Virus record (IMG/VR): IMGVR_UViG_3300033148_000546
Coordinates: 1-20,703 of that record
DNA from: a virus
Strand: one strand, 5' to 3'
Length of the DNA: 20,703 nt
The notes under the pieces were generated by a model that saw only the letters and a list, made by a program, of their open reading frames with translations, was not told the DNA's origin and did no database searches. The position numbers were made by a program, and so were the translations under genes. Shown piece by piece: positions 482 through 15,476 of this stretch (the first letter of the stretch is position 1; the number at the start of each line of letters is the position of its first letter).

Positions 482-3400
482 TTAATCCCTTGGTGCGCCA
501 GTTAATATCACCATTGGATTGTCTGTTTCCCCGTTCATTAAAGCCATATATCCGTCAAGCGTCCTATTGGCTTGGAATCCGGGGCCGGGAGCCAAATAAC
601 CAACCCCCTTAATAAGGTTGCTTACATCTCCTTCTGTGAAATCTCCAGTAGCCACATCAATAGTGGCTTTTGGTAATTTCGCCACCGTTTCCATTGCCGC
701 CTCGACAGGAGAAAGCCTTACGCTGAAGGCTTGAGTCTCTGGATCGAACTGTTTCAACATAGTGGGGAATATGTCCCTAAATACTGGAAACAGTTGTCCT
801 GCAAACAACAGTGAAGACCTTGCAGCACAAGTGGGTAGATTTTCAAAAATCTCATCCAGGCTATCGCCGCACTGTCCTCTAGCAATCGCTTCCAAGGTGG
901 CTGGAATAGTAATCACCCCCAAAGTCGTTAGCGTCATCCGTTGAGCTGCCTTTATTCGACGGCCTTCAGACCATTCTTTTGAGCTAATTCTTTGGCTTAC
1001 TACCATCTGCCCCAATTGAGCAGAGAAAAAATTGTAATACATAGTAATAATTCGCTTGAACTCCCCAGCAGCCCCCGCGCCACCAGAAATTTTAGCAAGA
1101 TCAACAGTTCTTCCGCTGCCCTGAGTCTGCCGAATAACTCTTCCCGCAAATTGTCTGGCTGCTTTAGAGTCGTTATTGTATATGCCCATGCCTTTTTCAA
1201 AGGCGGCAACATAAGCAGGCACAGTCACAGCCCTATCCATCATTCCCAGCCCTATAAGCCAAGTAGACATGCTTGGGCCAATATTTCCTTTACCTAAAAA
1301 TCTATTAGCTTCTGTACTTAAATCTCTGTCATAACCTCTTATCCTTTCCCTCATGTATTCATCTTCCATAACCCAATCGTATAATTTCCTTCCTTTCAAG
1401 CTTGTTAGCTTGCTCATGGCCTTTAAGAATCTGCCCGCACCAACTTGTCTAATCGCAGGAGAAACGCCAAGAACATTGATAGCTACCGTGTTAAAACTTG
1501 CTCCCATCATATTTATGAGAGTATTTCTTCTCGCGTACCATAAAGTCCTTTCCGTGAACCCTTGAGGAACAATTGGCTTTACAGCAACCTCCCTTACTCG
1601 CTGAAGTAAAGCGTTATAAACATCTGGACCCGATATGTTCTTTATTGCGTTACCAATCCGTTTGCTTTTCATTAAACGATAAGTGTCGGTAACTGCTTCT
1701 CTATGAGTAACGTCATGGATTGTTTCATTTATTTTATACGTCATACCAGTAAGTGACAGGTTTAGTGGCTTTTTAACCCTATCAAGCCTTTGCTTGCTGG
1801 CGCTCTGTCTTGTGGCGGCACTTGTAGCTGTTCCGCCCCGCAAATCTCTGATAGCATCGTCTGTATTATAATCGTATGCCCTTACATCAAGATCACCATC
1901 ATAAACAAGAGGAACATAACCACCAGTCAATATCCCTTTGGAAGTTTCATATGATAGAGCCTCTACTTTTTTTGCCGGAAGCCCCTTAGTTCTTTCATCA
2001 ACACCCTTTAATCTTGGCCATATAATAGTGTCAGACATCGCCCAAAATGCATTAACAAAATCAATGTCCCGCTTTTCTAGTGTTTCTAATATTTTCCGTA
2101 TCATAGGTTCCGAGTATTCGTTCCCATCAATCAGTCTTTGGCGACCTTCTGGATTTCCATAGTTCAAAGCGATAGCGATCCGCTTTTCTCTGGTAAAGTA
2201 TTCATCCCCAAGCTTTATTTTTGACGAAGAAAAGGCCAATCGCTCCTTAACTGAGTATGCTTTTGTGAACGGACTCAAAAAATCTGAAATCTCCTTCATT
2301 AAAGTTGACTGATCATCAGCGGCCTCGCTTAAACGGCCAAAAAGAGAATCAAATATCTGCTCCCCTTTACCGAGGGTCATCGATTCAAGAAGATTCTCCA
2401 AATTAAGGAATTCGGCATCAAACTTGCTTTTGAATTTACCGCTAAATTCTTTAATTGCTGGCCTAGTGTCTTTCTTGTAAGGAATAGGCTGGTCTTCTTC
2501 ATCAAAGACTTTAGGGTGAACCTCACGCAGCTCCCCGAGAATCGCCTGCTTCTCTTCTTCAAACATCATATTCCGGCGCTCTATGTACATATTCTGCTCA
2601 CGCCTAGCAAGATGCTCCAACTGTTTTAGTGTATCCCTCAAGCCCCGTACTTCTTCTAATGTCATTTCCTTATAGTGCTTCTTGAAACGCTCATCAGCCA
2701 TTTTCGGGTCAATATCAACATTTACAGCGTCTAATCTGTCTGCCTCGCTTTCCATAAACTTAGCAAGAGAATCAATCTCTTTTAAGGTCACGCTCTTTCG
2801 TAGGTCAAATCGAGCCAACAAAGCGTCTATCTGCTCAAGATATTCACCCCTCAGATTCTTTCTCGTACCCTCACGGTCAAATTTCTTGAGATAGCGAACC
2901 ATCTTCTCTGTCTCAGTTTGGGCATTATTAGCCGCACGGAAGAAGTGATTGTTCAAAACTTGAGCGCGTTTATGTTCAGCAGCCGAATCCCTATCACCTT
3001 GGATAATGGATTTCTCTGCATTCTTAGCAGCACGAGTTTCAGCAGCCGCATACTGGAAGGGGCGGATTTCTCTGATCTTCTTTCGGGATATAGCCTCTTC
3101 AGCGTATTGTTTAGCCGCTCTGGATAATACGTTTCCAGTAGCAGCTCTCTTGGTTAGGCTTGAAAGCTCTGTATGTAAGAATCGAGTATGTGCCTCGTTA
3201 TGGATGGCTTCCTCAGCAGCCCTCTCAATCACTACAGGGTCGGTTAGGTCTCCGTAGGTCTCCAGCATCCTTTCGTCTGTCAGGCGGTCTATATGAGTCT
3301 TCTGTGGCTCTGCTTGGCTAAGTCTCTGGATTAATTCATCGCCAGACGTAAATCCGAACATTTCAGCAACAATATCAGGATGTAAACCGTCTTTTCCGAG

Positions 3401-6400
3401 CATTCCCGTTTTGCCCGTACCGAGATTTCTCCAATCAACCTCAGCTTCCATGCCTCTAATTTTGTCAAAGTCTGCATTAACTGAGTATTGGGTATCCCCA
3501 CGCAGGTCTTTATCTAACTTATTTAGCAAGTCGTTAGCCGTATAAGGTTCAGGCAGGTATCCAAGCTGAGATAACTGTTCAGCCATTCCGTCAAAACTCA
3601 ATCCGCCTCGTTTAAATACACGTTTCCCGAATACAGGCTGTGCAGTAAAGTCAGCAGGGTCAATTCCTTGGGCCTCAGACTCTTCTCGACTAAGACCTCC
3701 GAGTTTTGCAATAGCCACTTGAAGACCGTCAATCTCTGAATCAACCACTTTAGGATCAGATTTAGCTCCCTCGTAAGTTTCTTCAACTGTTTTCAGGTCA
3801 ATCTTATGAATCTCAGCTTTAACATCGCTATCCAGTAATTCACCTTTCTTGGCAAAGTTCATCGCTTGGTAAGTTGTTTCCCGTGAAACCTCTTCAGCGA
3901 CTTCAGCCCTCATAGCCTTACGTTTAGCCTTAGCCTCCTTCTGAAGCTCTCTCAGGGCTTTTCCTTTGGCTTTGGATAACCACTTCATATCCCTGAGAGA
4001 ACGTGTCTGTAGCTGGCTCTCGCTCATTACGCGCCGTCTTTCGTCCATATTCTGATAGTCAATCCACTGCTTCTCGGTCATTCCGGCTTCTTCAGCACTC
4101 TCAAACAGAGGTTCGTAAGCGCGGGCAACTTCCTTTTCTCTAATCTGTTCTTTAGTAGCAAGCATTCTGTCAAATACCTGAGTAACTTCAGGGGTTAAAG
4201 TGACGTTTAATTTAGCGAGATTCTGATAGACGTTCAGCAGCCAATCCCTGAATCGGGAGAATAGAGACTGCATTTCAATGTTGGGCGATTTGCCCTCGAA
4301 TAAATAGGCTTCAAAGGCGCGGGCTACCTTTTCATGACCGTCTCGACGCTGCTCAAGAGTCATTCCATTCCACACTTCCAGATTCTCGACTTCAACAAAG
4401 TCAAGAAGTGTCTGCATGTCCTGAGCTATTTCAGGATTCTCAGCCGCTAATGTCTTGTAGGACTCAAAGAAAAAATGGCCGCTTTCATGGAGGAATGTAC
4501 TTAAATCAGCATTCTCTAATAAAGTAATCAATGCGCCATCATCGAACTGGATTTGGCCTCTGGCTTCTTGGCGGTAAATACTTGGATCGGTTGGATCGAA
4601 TGCGCCCACATTTTCTACCGATTTAATATTTGTTTTCCCAGAATCAAAAACATGAACATGCGCTGTTCCTTGCTCAATATCCATAGTCTTAAAGCGAGAT
4701 TCAGCATTTTTTAAAATAATAGCGTCATATCCAAGCTCTTCGATTATCTCCCCTATAAGATGGAACCCGATTAATTCCCCTTTCTCTCCTTCTGCGTACA
4801 TCATGCTTTCTGACTCGCGCATTAAGGCTTCAATAGAATCGCTAGTTGCCTCTGATCCCAATTCATATACCTGACCAGCAAGCTCCGCCGCATCAACATC
4901 ATTACGGGTTGCAACAACTTGAATCGCTTCAGCTAAAGGATGTTCCTGATCTGCCTCAATATCCCATCTAGCCTCATCAATTTCATCCTCATAGGTATCT
5001 ATATCGACCTCAACTTCTTTTACTGTTAAGTCGTTATTATCTGCCACCTGCTCAATGGCAAGTTTCTGTGTTTCTTCATTATCAACAAATTCGAGCCACT
5101 GCGTTTCACCACCAACAATGAATGGATTTTCCATTTTCACAAAAAGCTCTAGCGTTTGCTCACCCCCGCCAGACAATTCTCGTCGCGCTAATACTTTGCC
5201 TACTTCATAAGCTGCGTCTGAATCATCCATATCGGCAACTTGCGCACTTACAATTCTTAACTCGCTAGTGCTTCTATACAAAGAATCAAGAACTTCTTTT
5301 CGCCCTTTTTCATCAAACTGATCTTCTAATTTCTGCTGTAATTGTTCAGATCGTTGCTCTATACGAGAAGTTAAATCTGGCCCCTCGCCCGCATAATTGT
5401 CTGAAGCGTCTTGCTCACTTGAGGTAAAGTAATTAACAGCACCAAATTGGCCTTCAAAGTTCCCGCGAGTTGCGTCAAAAGCATCAAATTCATGGGTAGT
5501 TCCATGGTAAACCTTAACCACAAACGGGCCTTCTCCGGTAAAATCAAAATCATTAATCCCCCATCCTTCTATGACTTGTACATCTGCGCCGCCCGCCCAA
5601 TTCTTAAATTGCTCTGATTCTTCGTCTACTACAGGAGTTTGATACAAAGCAGCAACAGGCTCTCTGTACATAGATTCACTAATAGTAAAATCTTTCTTTC
5701 TGCCTTTATTCTCAACAAAGCCAAAACGCTTATAGAATTTAACGAGCCTAGCTCTTGATGTGGTGCCTTGAAAGTCATCTTTTACTGCTGGAGTAAGGGT
5801 TACTCGCAGACCTTTGCTGTCCGCAAAATCAATAATTGCTTGCATGGCTTTTGTGCCTACACCCTCTTTTCGCTCTCCTTTTGGGACAATGATAGTATCG
5901 AGCTTTAAGTCGCCATTGGACTCAAACAAGTTGAGACTTTTAAGTCCTAACGACTTTTCCAAATTATCAGAAAAAGTCTGAACATCCCCCGCCTTTAGTG
6001 CGGCCTGCTCATAAGCCTCACCCGCTAAAACCTTTTCTAATCTAACTCTATTCTCAGCTTGGTCGGCACGATGAGCCTCATGTAACTTAGCCATGTAAGC
6101 GTCTACTTCTTCAGGCGGGATAACCATTGTTACGCTGGAATCTTCTTGCATTTTAGTAAATGATTCTTTAAGAGTTGCCCCAGGCTTAGTAGCTGGTCTG
6201 AACCCATTCGCATAAAATAATGCAACGGATGATTCGCTTGAAGCGGCTGCGGATATTTCAGCAGGGTCATATAACCTCAATACATCGGAAAGTATTTTAC
6301 GGCCTACACCTTTGCCACGTTCAGATTCTTCTACTACAAAGTCTGTAATAGAATTTTTACGAGGCGCAAATTCTGCATCTTCCATGACTGTGATATGTGC

Positions 6401-8131
6401 AGCATCCGTTGAATATTGCTTCCCTAGTGATGTGTCAGTAACATTCAAACCCAATTCTTCAGGGGTGCGTTGCTCTAACACCATATCTCCGATAACTGGG
6501 GCACCACGAACCTCAAGCCCGAATTGCTCATAGACCTCTTCAGGTGTTTTGCCAATACGATCTGCTACGGTTACGGCAAAGGCTTTGTGAAGTTGAGAGT
6601 ATTTCTCAGCCGCTTCCTCAGTAAATCTACCCGTCTTAACAATCTGCTCTTTAATCTTGGTCGCTACCGTCTCAGCCGAAGTGCGAAATTCACTTTCCAC
6701 TTCTTGCTCTTCCAAGATACGTTCAGCCTCAGCTTCAAACTGTTCATTGCCTTGTTCTACCCATTCGTTAGCCTCCTTAGCATTCATTCCGTCCATATCG
6801 TTTCTAACCACTTCGGTCAGTTGGTCATGGTATTCCGACAGATAAGTTAAGTAGTCTGATTTCTGGATAACGACATCACCCTGAACCGCAAGGGCTTCGG
6901 TGATAGTTTCCTGTAACTCTGGAGGAAGAGTCTCTAAAATCTCTGGATTGGACTGAAAGAATACCTCAGCATCTTCAGGGGACAAGAAAACTTCCTCTTC
7001 AGCGCCCACAACCTCGTCGAGAAATTTCTTCATCTCTTCAGGGGAGCGAGACTTTAATTTAGTCTCGTTAACAGTTTCAATCTGACCATCTAAAGCCTCT
7101 TGCTTATTTAAAGCATCTTCGGACTTGTTCACATCACTACCGTAACGACTTAACGCGCCAGCACCACCAACTATCCCACTCTGAACTATCGTGGCTATAA
7201 GCGTCTCATAGGCCGCTTCAGGACGTTCCTTAAAATAATCGCCCCAAGTCTTATCAGGGTTTGCTATTGCTGTGTCTATGGCGCTTTGGACAATCTCTGC
7301 AACTTGTTCGCTTGGTAATTCTCTTGCTAAAAGCCCTGCAAGGAACTCCCCCGCGCCTACCTTGCCAAACTTACTCACAAGAAAGCCCATAGGCATTAAT
7401 TCAGTAGCGACTTCAACAGCACCTTCACCAACACTTCCCAAAAGAGCCATCTCAGGAGCCGCCCCACGCGCCCTGTATTTAGGATAAGCTTCGGCCTCCA
7501 CACCCACGCCCATTGCCATTAATGCAGGAACAGGGCTTTTAGCAATAACCGAAGCAATCAAAGCAGGGGCTTGACGGGTCAGACTTGTCAGCCCTCCGTA
7601 AACGCCACGCATAGTCGAGGTTTCAAACTCAGGGTCAAATCTTTGTGTTTTAGTCTCAGCCGCCGCAAACTTCTGTTCAGCGGATTTTCTCATTCTCTCA
7701 GACCCAATAAGATCAGCCCACTGCATTCGTATACCTTGGCGAATCTTTTCAAATCCTTCCACCGCGCCGACATGAAGACCTTTCATGGTTGAGATATATC
7801 CAGGCTCAGGCCCGCGAATACGAGAGAATGAATTCTCTACTTTCGACAAAGCGTCCACATCATCATGTGCAACGGAAGCAAAGTTAGGGTTTTGGAATGA
7901 TTTCTTTAAATACTCGGTACTCTGTAGCTTCTCGTATATTTCACGGTCTGAGACTATCTTGTTTATCTCAGGATTTCTTTCGGCCAAGTCTACAGGCACG
8001 TTTAACTTCTTAGCAGACCTTTGAATTTGAGCGTGAGCATCTGGATTCTGGTTAGAGCCAAAATCTATAGAAGTCTGGAGCATCCTACCGCTCCCGGTTA
8101 GCTCCTTGTAAATTTCCTCATCTGTTCTCAT
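482..8131 (-). CDS. Giant polyvalent virion/ejection protein (gp16 position) with two GNAT-like, one ART-like and one zincin-like domain
   Basis: This 2549-aa protein is nearly twice the length of T7 gp16, whose place it takes after gp13-, gp14- and gp15-like genes. It starts at ATG in an ATGA overlap with the gp15-like gene. Visible regions are: a conserved N-terminus (about 20-105); hydrophobic, Gly/Ala-rich, possibly membrane-active segments (175-330); GNAT-like domain 1 (569-660) with RGKGVG at 605-610 and a late FYANGF; GNAT-like domain 2 (728-825) with RKEGVG at 754-759 and FYKRFGF at 799-805; an ADP-ribosyltransferase-like domain (870-1180) with YHGT at 875-878, NYFTSS at about 900 and GYDAII at 1134; a zincin-like domain (1190-1340) with HESGH at 1215-1219 and AFEAYL at 1272-1277; a conserved polyvalent-type region (1440-1560); a helical part (1650-1960); and a conserved C-terminal phage region (2125-2430). 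No soluble lytic transglycosylase motif was found. Ejection into the host is inferred from position. Enzyme activities are motif-based. Confidence 0.85.
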   Translation of the reverse strand: MRTDEEIYKELTGSGRMLQTSIDFGSNQNPDAHAQIQRSAKKLNVPVDLAERNPEINKIVSDREIYEKLQSTEYLKKSFQNPNFASVAHDDVDALSKVENSFSRIRGPEPGYISTMKGLHVGAVEGFEKIRQGIRMQWADLIGSERMRKSAEQKFAAAETKTQRFDPEFETSTMRGVYGGLTSLTRQAPALIASVIAKSPVPALMAMGVGVEAEAYPKYRARGAAPEMALLGSVGEGAVEVATELMPMGFLVSKFGKVGAGEFLAGLLARELPSEQVAEIVQSAIDTAIANPDKTWGDYFKERPEAAYETLIATIVQSGIVGGAGALSRYGSDVNKSEDALNKQEALDGQIETVNETKLKSRSPEEMKKFLDEVVGAEEEVFLSPEDAEVFFQSNPEILETLPPELQETITEALAVQGDVVIQKSDYLTYLSEYHDQLTEVVRNDMDGMNAKEANEWVEQGNEQFEAEAERILEEQEVESEFRTSAETVATKIKEQIVKTGRFTEEAAEKYSQLHKAFAVTVADRIGKTPEEVYEQFGLEVRGAPVIGDMVLEQRTPEELGLNVTDTSLGKQYSTDAAHITVMEDAEFAPRKNSITDFVVEESERGKGVGRKILSDVLRLYDPAEISAAASSESSVALFYANGFRPATKPGATLKESFTKMQEDSSVTMVIPPEEVDAYMAKLHEAHRADQAENRVRLEKVLAGEAYEQAALKAGDVQTFSDNLEKSLGLKSLNLFESNGDLKLDTIIVPKGERKEGVGTKAMQAIIDFADSKGLRVTLTPAVKDDFQGTTSRARLVKFYKRFGFVENKGRKKDFTISESMYREPVAALYQTPVVDEESEQFKNWAGGADVQVIEGWGINDFDFTGEGPFVVKVYHGTTHEFDAFDATRGNFEGQFGAVNYFTSSEQDASDNYAGEGPDLTSRIEQRSEQLQQKLEDQFDEKGRKEVLDSLYRSTSELRIVSAQVADMDDSDAAYEVGKVLARRELSGGGEQTLELFVKMENPFIVGGETQWLEFVDNEETQKLAIEQVADNNDLTVKEVEVDIDTYEDEIDEARWDIEADQEHPLAEAIQVVATRNDVDAAELAGQVYELGSEATSDSIEALMRESESMMYAEGEKGELIGFHLIGEIIEELGYDAIILKNAESRFKTMDIEQGTAHVHVFDSGKTNIKSVENVGAFDPTDPSIYRQEARGQIQFDDGALITLLENADLSTFLHESGHFFFESYKTLAAENPEIAQDMQTLLDFVEVENLEVWNGMTLEQRRDGHEKVARAFEAYLFEGKSPNIEMQSLFSRFRDWLLNVYQNLAKLNVTLTPEVTQVFDRMLATKEQIREKEVARAYEPLFESAEEAGMTEKQWIDYQNMDERRRVMSESQLQTRSLRDMKWLSKAKGKALRELQKEAKAKRKAMRAEVAEEVSRETTYQAMNFAKKGELLDSDVKAEIHKIDLKTVEETYEGAKSDPKVVDSEIDGLQVAIAKLGGLSREESEAQGIDPADFTAQPVFGKRVFKRGGLSFDGMAEQLSQLGYLPEPYTANDLLNKLDKDLRGDTQYSVNADFDKIRGMEAEVDWRNLGTGKTGMLGKDGLHPDIVAEMFGFTSGDELIQRLSQAEPQKTHIDRLTDERMLETYGDLTDPVVIERAAEEAIHNEAHTRFLHTELSSLTKRAATGNVLSRAAKQYAEEAISRKKIREIRPFQYAAAETRAAKNAEKSIIQGDRDSAAEHKRAQVLNNHFFRAANNAQTETEKMVRYLKKFDREGTRKNLRGEYLEQIDALLARFDLRKSVTLKEIDSLAKFMESEADRLDAVNVDIDPKMADERFKKHYKEMTLEEVRGLRDTLKQLEHLARREQNMYIERRNMMFEEEKQAILGELREVHPKVFDEEDQPIPYKKDTRPAIKEFSGKFKSKFDAEFLNLENLLESMTLGKGEQIFDSLFGRLSEAADDQSTLMKEISDFLSPFTKAYSVKERLAFSSSKIKLGDEYFTREKRIAIALNYGNPEGRQRLIDGNEYSEPMIRKILETLEKRDIDFVNAFWAMSDTIIWPRLKGVDERTKGLPAKKVEALSYETSKGILTGGYVPLVYDGDLDVRAYDYNTDDAIRDLRGGTATSAATRQSASKQRLDRVKKPLNLSLTGMTYKINETIHDVTHREAVTDTYRLMKSKRIGNAIKNISGPDVYNALLQRVREVAVKPIVPQGFTERTLWYARRNTLINMMGASFNTVAINVLGVSPAIRQVGAGRFLKAMSKLTSLKGRKLYDWVMEDEYMRERIRGYDRDLSTEANRFLGKGNIGPSMSTWLIGLGMMDRAVTVPAYVAAFEKGMGIYNNDSKAARQFAGRVIRQTQGSGRTVDLAKISGGAGAAGEFKRIITMYYNFFSAQLGQMVVSQRISSKEWSEGRRIKAAQRMTLTTLGVITIPATLEAIARGQCGDSLDEIFENLPTCAARSSLLFAGQLFPVFRDIFPTMLKQFDPETQAFSVRLSPVEAAMETVAKLPKATIDVATGDFTEGDVSNLIKGVGYLAPGPGFQANRTLDGYMALMNGETDNPMVILTGAPRD

Positions 8132-9741
8132 TTCTGCTGAAGGCTCTTGTACTCAGCTAGGATATTGTTCTCTGTAACCTCTGTTCCGTCCCTAGATAAT
8201 CTCAAGGCAAGCTCATCAACCATGTATGAAGGAACGCCCTCGACCTCAATGATTCCAGCGGCTATTTCAGTATTCCACCAGTAACCACGCTCCCTGATTA
8301 CATCAATAGAAAGCCTTTCGGTGATCTCCTGAATTTCTTTGACGGAAGGCTCTTTCCCTGTAGAGGCTTGCAAGGACTCGATTTCCTGATCAACACGCTT
8401 ATAGAAAGCCCTGACCTTATCGCCAGCACTTCCATCTTTCGTAGCTTCTTTAGGCTCTAAACCTATGCCAGCAGCAGCCCTGCTCATAACCTGAGTTTTC
8501 GTTGCTGATATAATCAATTTCTTCTCGTCTGTCTGGAGATTAATAATCTGCTTACGGTCACTTTCAGAAAGATTGTAAGCAAGCGGATTCATCTCTTGAA
8601 AGGCTTTAGGATCATCTCTTGCCATTAATTTAAGTTTGTAGTAATCCGCTCCACCATTAGGAACATCTTCACCTTTAGCATCAAGTTTTGCTCTATTCTG
8701 CAAAGAAGCTCTTTCCTTACCGTCCATCCCATCTAATACGGAAGCTGGAATCAGGTCATATGCGTCTTCAGAAGAAACACCGTTATCAATTGAATCAGAA
8801 TAGGTACTCCACGCACTCTCACCAAAAGCCTTTTGTTCACGGTCTTTGATCTGATTAGCCTCTGAATATCTCGCAGTAACACGCGCTAAGGCCGCATCTC
8901 TGACCTCTGAGGGTAATTTCCTTGCCTTGGCCCTTGCTTCAGTCTCACTCAGACCTTCATTCACATAGCCATCCACCTCTTCCTGAGATTGTTCTTTAAT
9001 TCCACCGGCTTTTAGCAGACGTTTAATATCATCCTGTCTATCACCTAGAATATTCTTTTGGTTCTTCTCGAAGTACGATTTAGCCAGTTGATAATTACCA
9101 TCATCATTGGCTTGTATAATTACGCCTTCGTGGAGGTTCGATACATTAGACTTGATTAAAATCTTCCGAGCATCACCCTTCAGTCCAAGACGATCAGCCT
9201 CAGCCTCACTCAGCTTTTGAGTCCTTAACAAAGACCCTTTAACCACAGCAGGATTGTCATAATCAGATGAAGCGATGTCTAATTCAGCCGCCACACCACC
9301 ATCAAAGGTCTGTTTCTGGAAAGCACTCTGCTCTTTAGTTGTGTGGTTTATCAGGTTTTCCGAGTAACCCAGTCTACGGACAGAAGATCGGCGATCAAAC
9401 GCTTCTCTCTGGTCGTCATTTCTCAGCGTTTCTGATATGTTTTTTGAAGCCTCGTCAAACCGAGCCGTATAATCGTTGTAAAAGTCTTCCCCAACATCAC
9501 CAGACTTAACGCGAGTGAATCCGTCATCACCTTTACTGAGGCGAATCATATCCTGCTGGAGTCGTGTATCAGCGTCTTCTACTCGATACTTGTCATCTTC
9601 AATCTTCTTCTTGGCTAAAACCCCACCAAGCCCAGAAATCGTATCTCCAATCTTTGCAGGCGCGGGCGCTTCATAGGCAGGCGTTATCCCACCAAATCCG
9701 GGTGTAACTCGTTGTCCTGATGTATCCGGTAATTTAGGCAT
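8128..9741 (-). CDS. Internal virion / ejection protein, gp15-like
   Basis: This is a 537-aa charged, helix-rich protein without obvious membrane segments or enzyme motifs. Its opening (MPKLPDTSGQRVTPGFGG) is the basic, Pro/Gly-rich N-terminus common to phage internal virion proteins of this class. The frame is open upstream to a GTG at 9765. The ATG at 9741 is preferred because a purine-rich GGGAAGA lies about 9 bases before it and it overlaps the upstream stop codon by only a few bases. By position, length and composition it corresponds to T7 gp15, an ejectosome component that forms part of the DNA channel across the periplasm. It overlaps the giant protein by ATGA, so the two are probably translationally coupled. 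The identification rests on order and general character rather than on a diagnostic motif. Confidence 0.75.
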   Translation of the reverse strand: MPKLPDTSGQRVTPGFGGITPAYEAPAPAKIGDTISGLGGVLAKKKIEDDKYRVEDADTRLQQDMIRLSKGDDGFTRVKSGDVGEDFYNDYTARFDEASKNISETLRNDDQREAFDRRSSVRRLGYSENLINHTTKEQSAFQKQTFDGGVAAELDIASSDYDNPAVVKGSLLRTQKLSEAEADRLGLKGDARKILIKSNVSNLHEGVIIQANDDGNYQLAKSYFEKNQKNILGDRQDDIKRLLKAGGIKEQSQEEVDGYVNEGLSETEARAKARKLPSEVRDAALARVTARYSEANQIKDREQKAFGESAWSTYSDSIDNGVSSEDAYDLIPASVLDGMDGKERASLQNRAKLDAKGEDVPNGGADYYKLKLMARDDPKAFQEMNPLAYNLSESDRKQIINLQTDEKKLIISATKTQVMSRAAAGIGLEPKEATKDGSAGDKVRAFYKRVDQEIESLQASTGKEPSVKEIQEITERLSIDVIRERGYWWNTEIAAGIIEVEGVPSYMVDELALRLSRDGTEVTENNILAEYKSLQQK

Positions 9742-10168
9742 TAGCGTACATCTTCCCTGCACCACTTAAAACGGTGGCATAAGATTTAGTTTTACTCACA
9801 GCTTGCGTTTCCTGACCAAATTTCTCAGCCAATGAGCCTTCGTATTTCAATTTCTCCGCTTTGGACTCCGCTTCGTACATCGCCACATTCGCCTCATAAA
9901 CGCCTTCGCCATGAATATCAGCAATCAGGTTATCAATGTCCTGAGCCGCTCCACCTGCGGAAGCTACAGCTAAAGCGCGAGACGCCATCAAATCTGATTG
10001 CCTTCCCGCTTCTAGTGCTTTTCTCTGCCCCACAGCCACTTCCTGAGTAGCTGAGACCTCATTCAAGACCTTTTGCACCTTGCCTCTACGCATTGACTGA
10101 TAACCGGCCTGCTGTTCCTCACCGGCGCTTAGAACCGTTCCCACGGCCATAAAGATTAGACTCGCCAT
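9734..10168 (-). CDS. Internal virion protein, gp14-like
   Basis: This 144-aa protein starts at ATG 10168 with a strong ribosome binding site (GAGGTGA) and overlaps the preceding gene by 13 bases. The N-terminus (about residues 3-16) is hydrophobic. The rest is Ala-, Glu- and Gln-rich and helical, with a central segment (about 45-75: RKALEAG ... SRALAVASAGGAA) of the kind seen in small phage internal core proteins that lie before the two large ejection proteins. This fits T7 gp14, the outer-membrane part of the ejectosome. Its last bases overlap the start of the gp15-like gene. No catalytic residues are visible. Function is inferred from context, composition and the hydrophobic N-terminus. 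Confidence 0.7.
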   Translation of the reverse strand: MASLIFMAVGTVLSAGEEQQAGYQSMRRGKVQKVLNEVSATQEVAVGQRKALEAGRQSDLMASRALAVASAGGAAQDIDNLIADIHGEGVYEANVAMYEAESKAEKLKYEGSLAEKFGQETQAVSKTKSYATVLSGAGKMYANA

Positions 10169-10497
10169 ATATCACCTCGATAATGTTCAAAGCCTGCATG
10201 AATTAACAATTTCTCGCTTCCTTCTATTTCTGGATCAGCCTGAGCGTAAACCGGGATGTTGGGCAAAATATCCAGATATTTACGGTAGACTTTCACAACC
10301 ATTCGCTTAAAAGACTTATGCTCTCTCAATTCGTCCGATATATCCGTAAAGACAATCGCCTTCCCATTGTCCAATGTTAAGCCAGCAACGCCCACAGGTT
10401 TATCCCCATCCATAACGATTAAAGACTTAAAGGTTTCTTTTGGAGGCTCACCATAGAACTTGGTTAGAAGCTCCTTTGTTCCGTTAACAACAATCAT
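10156..10497 (-). CDS. Small GNAT-like protein in the gp13 position
   Basis: This 113-aa protein shows the reduced plan of a GNAT fold. A PVGVAGL strand (about residues 36-42) is followed by a short hairpin and a helix, then PVYAQADPE, and finally the SEKLLIHAGFEHY segment resembling GNAT motif B. The Q/R-x-x-G-x-G/A loop that binds the acetyl-CoA pyrophosphate is absent: the corresponding stretch reads DELREHKSFKR. It is therefore probably a structural or degenerate member. T7 gp13, in the same genomic place and needed for virion assembly, has likewise been described as acetyltransferase-like. It starts at ATG 10497 in an ATGA overlap with the nozzle gene and has no strong ribosome binding site of its own, so coupling to the upstream gene is likely. 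Confidence 0.65.
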   Translation of the reverse strand: MIVVNGTKELLTKFYGEPPKETFKSLIVMDGDKPVGVAGLTLDNGKAIVFTDISDELREHKSFKRMVVKVYRKYLDILPNIPVYAQADPEIEGSEKLLIHAGFEHYRGDIWRV

Positions 10498-14271: not shown

Positions 14272-14616
14272 TTAAGCAAATGTTGAAGTCATAGAACCGC
14301 CAGTAGACAGATTAGCGCCAGATGTCGAAACACCTGAGATAATACCTGTTACCAGAATATGACCCGTTGAACTCTCCGTGCTAAAGGTAGTAGCCAACAT
14401 AACGTCACCATTCCTCATACCCAGACGTTGACCGTCTGTGAAGAAGTTTGATGCCATAATGTCAGTAGACAGATTAGAGGAGTTATACATCCACAAACCT
14501 TGTCCCTCTGCTACCGAAGTAGAGTTAATGTTATTCGTCGGTGCTAGACCGCCTCGTGCAATAAGCATAGGAGGATTAGCGACAGACGATGCTGCTGTTG
14601 AGCCTACATAAGACAT
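14272..14616 (-). CDS. Small Gly/Ser/Thr-rich head protein, possibly a decoration protein
   Basis: This 114-aa protein starts with MSYVGSTAASSVANPPML. The frame is open further upstream to 14709, but the ATG at 14616 is chosen because an excellent ribosome binding site (TAAGGAGGTG, whose TAA is the capsid stop) lies 4 bases before it. The sequence is low in charge and rich in Ser, Thr, Gly and Ala, with alternating hydrophobic residues (MLATTFSTESSTGHILVTG) as in a small beta-sandwich. It is encoded directly after the major capsid gene and before the terminator, so it should be made in amounts close to the capsid protein. A capsid-decorating or stabilising role is the best inference; no family motif confirms it. 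Confidence 0.75.
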   Translation of the reverse strand: MSYVGSTAASSVANPPMLIARGGLAPTNNINSTSVAEGQGLWMYNSSNLSTDIMASNFFTDGQRLGMRNGDVMLATTFSTESSTGHILVTGIISGVSTSGANLSTGGSMTSTFA

Positions 14617-14627
14617 TTCACACCTCC

Positions 14628-15476
14628 TTAAGCGTAAGCAGAGCCATCGTGAGTAGCCACGACAACGCCTGAGTTTTGCAAGAGAACACCACCCATATAC
14701 ATAGTGCAACGTGCATATGAATAATCCTGTTCGTCGTCATAACCGACCGCAACGCCCATACCAGAGGTATCAGCAGCATGACCAGTTGAAGACTTGTGAT
14801 ACAAGAACGATTTCTCGCTATTGGTTCCTTTGCCCGGCAGATTTGGATGGGAAATAATCAATGTATTCCTCCACCGATATGCCATGGGTTGATCTTTCCA
14901 TTCTGCGCTATCGCCAGCATAAGGCCGTACCGGTGTGTAATCCGCGCTAGCGAACTCCGGTGCTTGCTCAAGATAGGCAAGGAATGAAGGTTGGCACAAC
15001 AAGGTAATATTTGAATCCCATGGAACAGAGGCATTCTGTAGCTTCACAGACATACTCTGGAACAGGTCAACATTAGGAACCGTAGTAGTGCCACCAACCG
15101 TTACCGTTCCAGTATTCAAGACAGTAGTGATTTGGTCGTCAATCTTACGATTCACTGTACCCATTGTGGTTTCCTGCATGATTCGACGTTGATCACCCTG
15201 AGAGGCGAAGATGTTGAATCCTGTCTTCCGAACTAAGTCATGCTCTTCTGTCAGTGTTGCAGTGTTTTGGGTTAAGTTATCGGCACGAGCGGGGATTAGT
15301 CCGTTTACGCCTCGGGTTACTGTCTCTGCTGTGCCTGAATCTGCAACAAGAAAGACAGCTTGATTACCCTTAATTACCGCCTCGGTAGTCACCGTGGCCC
15401 GAAGCAACGAAGATCGCTGCTCAAAGCCGTGGATATACTCTTGGCGATACTGGGTTTGCATTGCTGTATCAGCCAT
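14628..15476 (-). CDS. Major capsid protein
   Basis: This 282-aa protein matches a widespread capsid family of podovirus- and siphovirus-like phages. Diagnostic segments are YIHGFEQRSSLLRATVT (about residues 14-30), VTRGVNGLIPARADNLTQ (53-70), then EEHDLVRKTGFNIFASQGDQRR (77-98), and near the end GYDDEQDYSYARCTMYMGG followed by LLQNSGVVV. An HK97-type fold is expected. It starts at ATG 15476 with a very good ribosome binding site (AAAGGAG) and has a 181-base leader with a promoter-like sequence, consistent with high expression. Scaffold lies upstream and the small head protein downstream. No protease gene is present nearby and there is no clear N-terminal propeptide, in keeping with a separate scaffold. 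Confidence 0.88.
   Translation of the reverse strand: MADTAMQTQYRQEYIHGFEQRSSLLRATVTTEAVIKGNQAVFLVADSGTAETVTRGVNGLIPARADNLTQNTATLTEEHDLVRKTGFNIFASQGDQRRIMQETTMGTVNRKIDDQITTVLNTGTVTVGGTTTVPNVDLFQSMSVKLQNASVPWDSNITLLCQPSFLAYLEQAPEFASADYTPVRPYAGDSAEWKDQPMAYRWRNTLIISHPNLPGKGTNSEKSFLYHKSSTGHAADTSGMGVAVGYDDEQDYSYARCTMYMGGVLLQNSGVVVATHDGSAYA

Follow-up and report, generated by a model that had tools for sequence, protein, structure and literature searches.

The giant gene and its domains

The window analysed here, 20,703 nucleotides of viral DNA (IMG/VR record IMGVR_UViG_3300033148_000546, positions 1 to 20,703), carries, on its minus strand, the late structural genes of a podovirus resembling BPP-1, in the order terminase, portal, scaffold-position gene, capsid, tail tubes, internal virion protein, structural-lysozyme-position gene and giant gene. 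The giant open reading frame (482..8131, minus strand, as are all window features given below) is stop-free throughout and encodes 2549 amino acids (aa). Its ATG start lies in a 4-nt overlap with the end of the late gene upstream, and its product is the last and largest protein of the podoviral internal-virion module, ahead of the tail spike. By sequence, the protein is a member of the known family of Bordetella phage BPP-1 Bbp10 (phrog_9880, E=0 over residues 1159-2538; tblastn matches to Bbp10 and to gp037 of Caulobacter phage BL94); the phrog_9880 profile also matches Bbp10 itself and a Vibrio member whose cargo slot is empty. The presence of disparate domains (LPD22, GNAT, ADP-ribosyltransferase (ART) and zincin) in one late-module protein likewise assigns it to the known class of phage polyvalent proteins. 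Two features of this family look new: a single swappable cargo slot, and [LFY]-x-Q tags at the ends of the modules placed in it.

The preliminary description had read two GNATs, an ART and a zincin from motifs in the 2549-aa frame. All of these motifs were located in the translation (RGKGVG, residues 605-610; RKEGVG, 754-759; YHGT, 875; NYFTSS, 900; GYDAII, 1134; HESGH, 1215), and the searches reported here confirmed the two GNATs and the zincin motif and lent profile support to the ART. The constant N-terminal body (residues 1-541; 6509..8131), to which relatives align up to residue ~541 and not past it, contains an LPD22 domain (residues 18-103; 7823-8080; Pfam E 1.2e-13, above the curated cut-off). 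A transmembrane scan identified one 19-residue stretch scoring >1.6 in this body; such stretches were found in 7/81 N-bodies, of which they are not a family feature, versus 51/81 C-bodies.

GNAT matches in Pfam exceeded the curated cut-offs (Acetyltransf_1, E 1.4e-8; Acetyltransf_7, 2.2e-8; Acetyltransf_10, 1.3e-6). GNAT1 (residues 562-675; 6107..6448) was matched by Acetyltransf_10 and GNAT2 (residues 718-826; 5654..5980) by Acetyltransf_1 and Acetyltransf_7; both carry the RxxGxG acetyl-CoA loop (RGKGVG and RKEGVG, respectively) and retrieved PDB acetyltransferases by profile. In the jumbo phages HRDY3 and fHe-Yen9-02, GNAT1 has counterparts encoded by stand-alone genes of 130 aa (37% identity). 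GNAT2 belongs to a mobile, widely distributed domain type, of which IMG/VR contains at least 323 relatives; domains sharing 60-63% identity with it occur in unrelated giant proteins from Ruegeria phage 45A6 and Vibrio phage 1.232.O. An ART was encoded in the same frame at 24/79 GNAT2 loci, starting ≤80 aa away in 13 of them.

The ART (residues 850-1185; 4577..5584; H876-Y901-D1136) is broken up by helical insertions totalling roughly 180 aa. Between Y901 and D1136, insertions were observed at residues ~916-980 and 1010-1128 (~4750-5390). Since these insertions hide the domain, Pfam ART-PolyVal matched its N-terminal part only (E 8.9e-6; 27.0 bits versus a cut-off of 31.2), a second search giving 35.3 bits once the adjacent in-frame match was added. 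In profile-profile comparison (hhalign), both halves aligned with ten clear ART-PolyVal slot domains of the same family (prob 99.8, E 5e-28), and a profile of those ten sister domains retrieved 18 PDB matches, 17 of which were bacterial mono-ART toxins, at weak significance (E 0.01-0.4). Close relatives are the ARTs of L102, a further family member (70% identity), and of L061 (48%), and those of Myxococcus phage Mx1 and Tunturiibacter phage Tunturi_5 (31-34%); the insertions are conserved in the first two and partly in the latter two. H876, Y901 and D1136, corresponding to the published H-Y-D triad of polyvalent ARTs (PMC5512222), are invariant among the five closest ARTs. Taken together, the profiles support the domain and argue that the partial Pfam match is not due to chance. 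The ratio of nonsynonymous to synonymous divergence (dN/dS) was saturated; identities by codon position, 0.77/0.85/0.44 between the ART and that of L102 and 0.69/0.85/0.35 between GNAT2 and its counterpart in L120, indicate purifying selection on both domains. A search for plasmid relatives of the ART returned none. An ART of this subtype is also present in the giant proteins of Mx1 (L014) and Tunturi_5 (L015), which are annotated as NUDIX hydrolase; the Tunturi_5 protein shows a further ART match that is partial.

The zincin metallopeptidase (MPTase; residues 1195-1357; 4061..4549) gave no Pfam match, and was recognised by its invariant HExxH and E..A...E.Y signatures. Its HESGH motif spans residues 1215-1219 (4475-4489), with E1274 or E1267 as candidate third ligand; HExxH and ExxAxxFExY, which supplies the acidic residues of the second helix, were kept in 93/95 family members. 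The remaining constant C-terminal body (residues 1358-2549; 482..4060) is predicted to be all-helical (AlphaFold2, residues 1361-2549, pLDDT 78.7), and a PDB fold search with this model was without match.

A single slot with exchanged cargo

Relatives were chosen by similarity to the window zincin, from a family with 579 or more IMG/VR members. Anchors in the N-body and the zincin were placed in 80-odd of them, and length statistics were calculated for 60 non-redundant full-length members. All cargo was found in one slot between the constant N-terminal body and the conserved zincin. The slot varied from 14 to 1417 aa (standard deviation 377, as against 55 for the N-body and 62 for the C-body), accounted for 91% of the length variance and was empty in 6/60 members. 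Pfam searches over 50 loaded slots, including that of the window, matched ART-PolyVal in 19 slots, GNAT in 11 (one weak) and PBECR or MuF_C nuclease domains in 10, the PBECR types being PBECR1/3/5; other cargo comprised LPD3/23/37, a GHKL ATPase and domains of unknown function (DUFs). The GHKL ATPase (Hsp90/gyrase-type; L082, 4037-7024) is unusual for an injected phage effector.

On these comparisons, cargo turns over faster than scaffold. Scaffolds 94-97% identical carried largely unrelated cargo (L056/L057, L077/L091) or had gained cargo (L097/L098): the C-bodies of L056/L057 are 96% identical with cargo matching at 41% across only 200 of ~680 aa, and L077/L091 combine 94% scaffold identity with unrelated cargo. 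At 83% identity, L079/L088 carry an ART and a PBECR5 domain, respectively, and at 90% identity L064 is empty and L080 carries a GNAT. Further empty and loaded sisters are L013/L005 and L041/L160/L050, the latter three, closely related to one another, carrying no module, GNAT2 alone, and GNAT2 plus ART, respectively. The window protein itself shares 70% identity with L102 in the ART, versus 39% in the zincin and 24% in the C-body, from which an exchange of the ART module can be deduced.

Tags at the module junctions

Nearly every cargo boundary closes with an [LFY]-x-Q tag, with the consensus I/L/A/V/T at P4, L or F at P3, any residue at P2 and Q at P1, and with variable flanks. The pattern was discovered on a first set of 76 members, in which 72/76 had a tag in the 20 aa preceding the zincin (background 22%) and 66/76 had one in the 25 aa following the N-body (background 28%); hydrophobic-x-Q ranked first of 80 h-n-X patterns at both junctions. 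A second set, comprising 40 additional members taken from genomes of bacteria (chiefly beta- and gammaproteobacteria), showed it before the zincin in 36/40 (versus 19%) and at the N-junction in 30/40 (versus 24%). When the first set was clustered at 65% zincin identity, 31 and 27 of the resulting 34 clusters retained it at the respective positions.

The tag also marks modules remote from the zincin, closing 18/19 of the ARTs that do not adjoin it. Behind GNAT2, it was present in 22/27 family proteins as against 9/34 outside proteins (p 2.6e-5), and behind the ART in 32/35 as against 3/11. Pooled, this amounts to 54/62 versus 12/45 (p ~2e-10, uncorrected for relatedness). In the pair L064/L080, cargo had been inserted exactly after the glutamine (TLDQ|PRDT versus TLDQ|GAAG...VMHQ|PRDT).

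In the window slot, the strict tag [ILVAT][LFYM]xQ occurs exactly four times, once per junction, where 1.5 occurrences are expected by shuffling. VLEQ|RT (Q554; 6470..6472) separates the N-body from GNAT1, AYEQ|AA (Q709; 6005..6007) GNAT1 from GNAT2, ALYQ|TP (Q831; 5639..5641) GNAT2 from the ART, and IYRQ|EARG (Q1188; 4568..4570) the ART from the zincin. All four are strict matches; in addition, the first and last are backed by the family-wide enrichment at their junctions and the third by the family comparison of GNAT2.

Neighbouring genes

The upstream late gene in the structural-lysozyme position (8128..9765) was assigned by phrog_10475/phrog_1044, gene order and its 4-nt overlap with the giant gene, and the internal virion protein (9734..10168) by phrog_418 (E 8e-9). 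A 113-aa gene between the tail nozzle and the internal virion protein (10156-10497) appears GNAT-like by eye (KPVGVAGL ... IHAGFEHYRG), and gave no significant library match. A 145-aa frame (14272-14709) overlaps the end of the capsid gene in a different reading frame. In the almost identical contig L001, the giant gene is followed by a tail-spike-like gene, an endolysin and more small lysis-region genes. A PADLOC search returned no match.

Proposed mechanism and alternatives

We infer, with slightly better than even confidence, that the giant protein is made late as an effector polyprotein, is probably packaged in the virion and is cut after glutamine, most simply by its own zincin, so that its effectors are freed. 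The constant N- and C-terminal bodies would carry the protein into the particle and out again with the ejection machinery, while the slot between them would hold exchangeable effectors, here GNAT1, GNAT2 and the H-Y-D ART, each ended by a tag. The zincin just behind the slot may then cut after the tag glutamines, either in the head or after entry, and the freed effectors would modify host or defence proteins by acetylation and ADP-ribosylation at an early stage of infection. Delivery by the virion, as advanced in the preliminary description, is kept as the most likely role. The extension to Bbp10-type proteins in general, as effector polyproteins in which a zincin acting in cis cuts after the glutamine of the tag closing every module, is put forward more tentatively, at somewhat less than an even chance. 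Autoproteolysis by the MPTase was proposed by Iyer et al. 2017 from the processing of DdrB of phage P1, with the N4 polymerase noted as unprocessed (PMC5512222).

Several observations weigh against self-cleavage of an injected polyprotein. The family members are related, so that the tag percentages are not independent events, and the comparison of family with non-family proteins confounds the zincin with all other differences between them. N-bodies are enriched in hydrophobic-x-Q also away from the junctions, and the tag is absent from three of about a dozen empty members and from a few loaded ones. To our knowledge, glutamine at P1 is not a known zincin specificity. An AlphaFold2 model of the ART and zincin, built on an alignment of 23 rows and dominated by the insertions, gave no PDB match in Foldseek, and a search of the open literature found no proteomics, cleavage or activity experiment on any family member. 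The tag-less empty members (L221, L223 and L065) look as if the site had been lost with nothing to release, with weak statistics (p 0.036).

The best-surviving alternative, which we nevertheless regard as unlikely, is that the tags are left uncut and serve as structural linker or docking motif joining independently folding modules, the protein working as one chain. It is favoured by the virion RNA polymerase of N4, which also contains an MPTase domain and is packaged unprocessed (PMC5512222), and by the conserved sequence ((A)RG) adjoining the pre-zincin tag. However, the tag is short, with glutamine at P1 and a hydrophobic P3 fixed amid variable flanks, and recurs behind ART and GNAT ends distant from the zincin. 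Less probable again is that the tags are true processing sites cut in trans by a head or host protease, with the zincin acting elsewhere, for instance on a host protein. Prohead proteases of T4-like and giant phages cleave ejected head proteins after h/A-x-E by an analogous site logic (PMC5694885), and a PHROG annotated as 'protease' weakly matches the scaffold-position protein of the window (E 0.0034). On the other hand, the major capsid and cement proteins of BPP-1 are uncleaved in virions (PMC3863775), which makes a general head protease less likely there, and the tags track membership of the zincin-bearing family.

Two further readings are very improbable. The giant protein could be a non-virion late protein, for example for lysis, as annotated relatives in GenBank are named 'lysis protein', 'lysin' or 'beta/gamma crystallin'; as no lysis domain was seen, such labels seem to have been taken over without testing, and the position in the internal-virion module, the separate endolysin downstream and the context of the polyvalent class speak against such a role. 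Most doubtful of all are tags acting purely as DNA recombination points (short homology for cassette exchange), which the coincidence of insertion and tag in L064/L080 would fit, but the glutamine codons follow the usage of the gene (49/71 CAG versus 51.2 expected), which indicates selection on protein rather than DNA, and P3 uses many Leu and Phe codons, with no conservation at the DNA level; a microhomology origin was thus not supported.

If the effector-polyprotein reading is correct, phages could exchange, combine or drop injected effectors within a single slot while their delivery stayed unchanged. The slot would serve as a catalogue of effectors injected by phages, with whatever lies between the constant bodies a candidate, and empty and loaded sister phages natural controls for the action of each effector. 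Release of polyvalent effectors by the zincin was proposed in 2017, with no published cleavage site found in the literature; with a short tag closing the modules, this question can be put directly to the test.

Comparison with known systems

BPP-1 Bbp10 shares the N-body, zincin, C-body and gene position of the window protein; its slot holds one PBECR1 nuclease domain, whereas that of the window holds two GNATs and an ART. Residues 700-1000 of Bbp10 served as a seed for the CLCA_X family, in which an HExxH zincin was described in phage proteins (PMC3650047). The published consensus of that family is HExxHxxxD, while most of the present clade, including the window, have E at the last position. 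Polyvalent proteins are likewise multidomain late-module proteins with LPD22, ART, GNAT and MPTase, and Iyer et al. 2017 explicitly described an ART as the usual neighbour of this GNAT (PMC5512222), in line with the loci counted here; a fixed slot, a junction motif and a cleavage site were not found in the available portion of that paper. The pairing of GNAT and ART, which the preliminary description had singled out as the novelty, was therefore rejected as such, and what may be undescribed lies instead in the slot and tags that it had missed. Its comparison with T7 gp16 holds for position, as last and largest internal virion protein, and failed as homology, the C-body giving no PDB sequence or fold match; unlike gp16, the window protein had no detectable lytic transglycosylase domain.

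T4 Alt is an injected ART, as proposed for that of the window, with an R-S-E rather than an H-Y-D triad. The nearest working analogy to the proposed processing is provided by T4, phiKZ and SPN3US, whose prohead protease cuts ejected head proteins after h/A-x-E (PMC5694885); there the site ends in E, compared with Q here, where a chain carries several effectors and the protease would act in cis. Polymorphic toxins (Zhang et al. 2012, PMC3482391) similarly combine a constant trafficking body, an exchangeable effector cassette and a releasing peptidase, but in the window family the slot is internal and may contain no effector, one or several, and immunity genes were not seen. If cleavage proceeds as proposed, the system would be a phage counterpart of the Q-site polyprotein processing of animal RNA viruses, with a metallopeptidase replacing the 3C-like protease.
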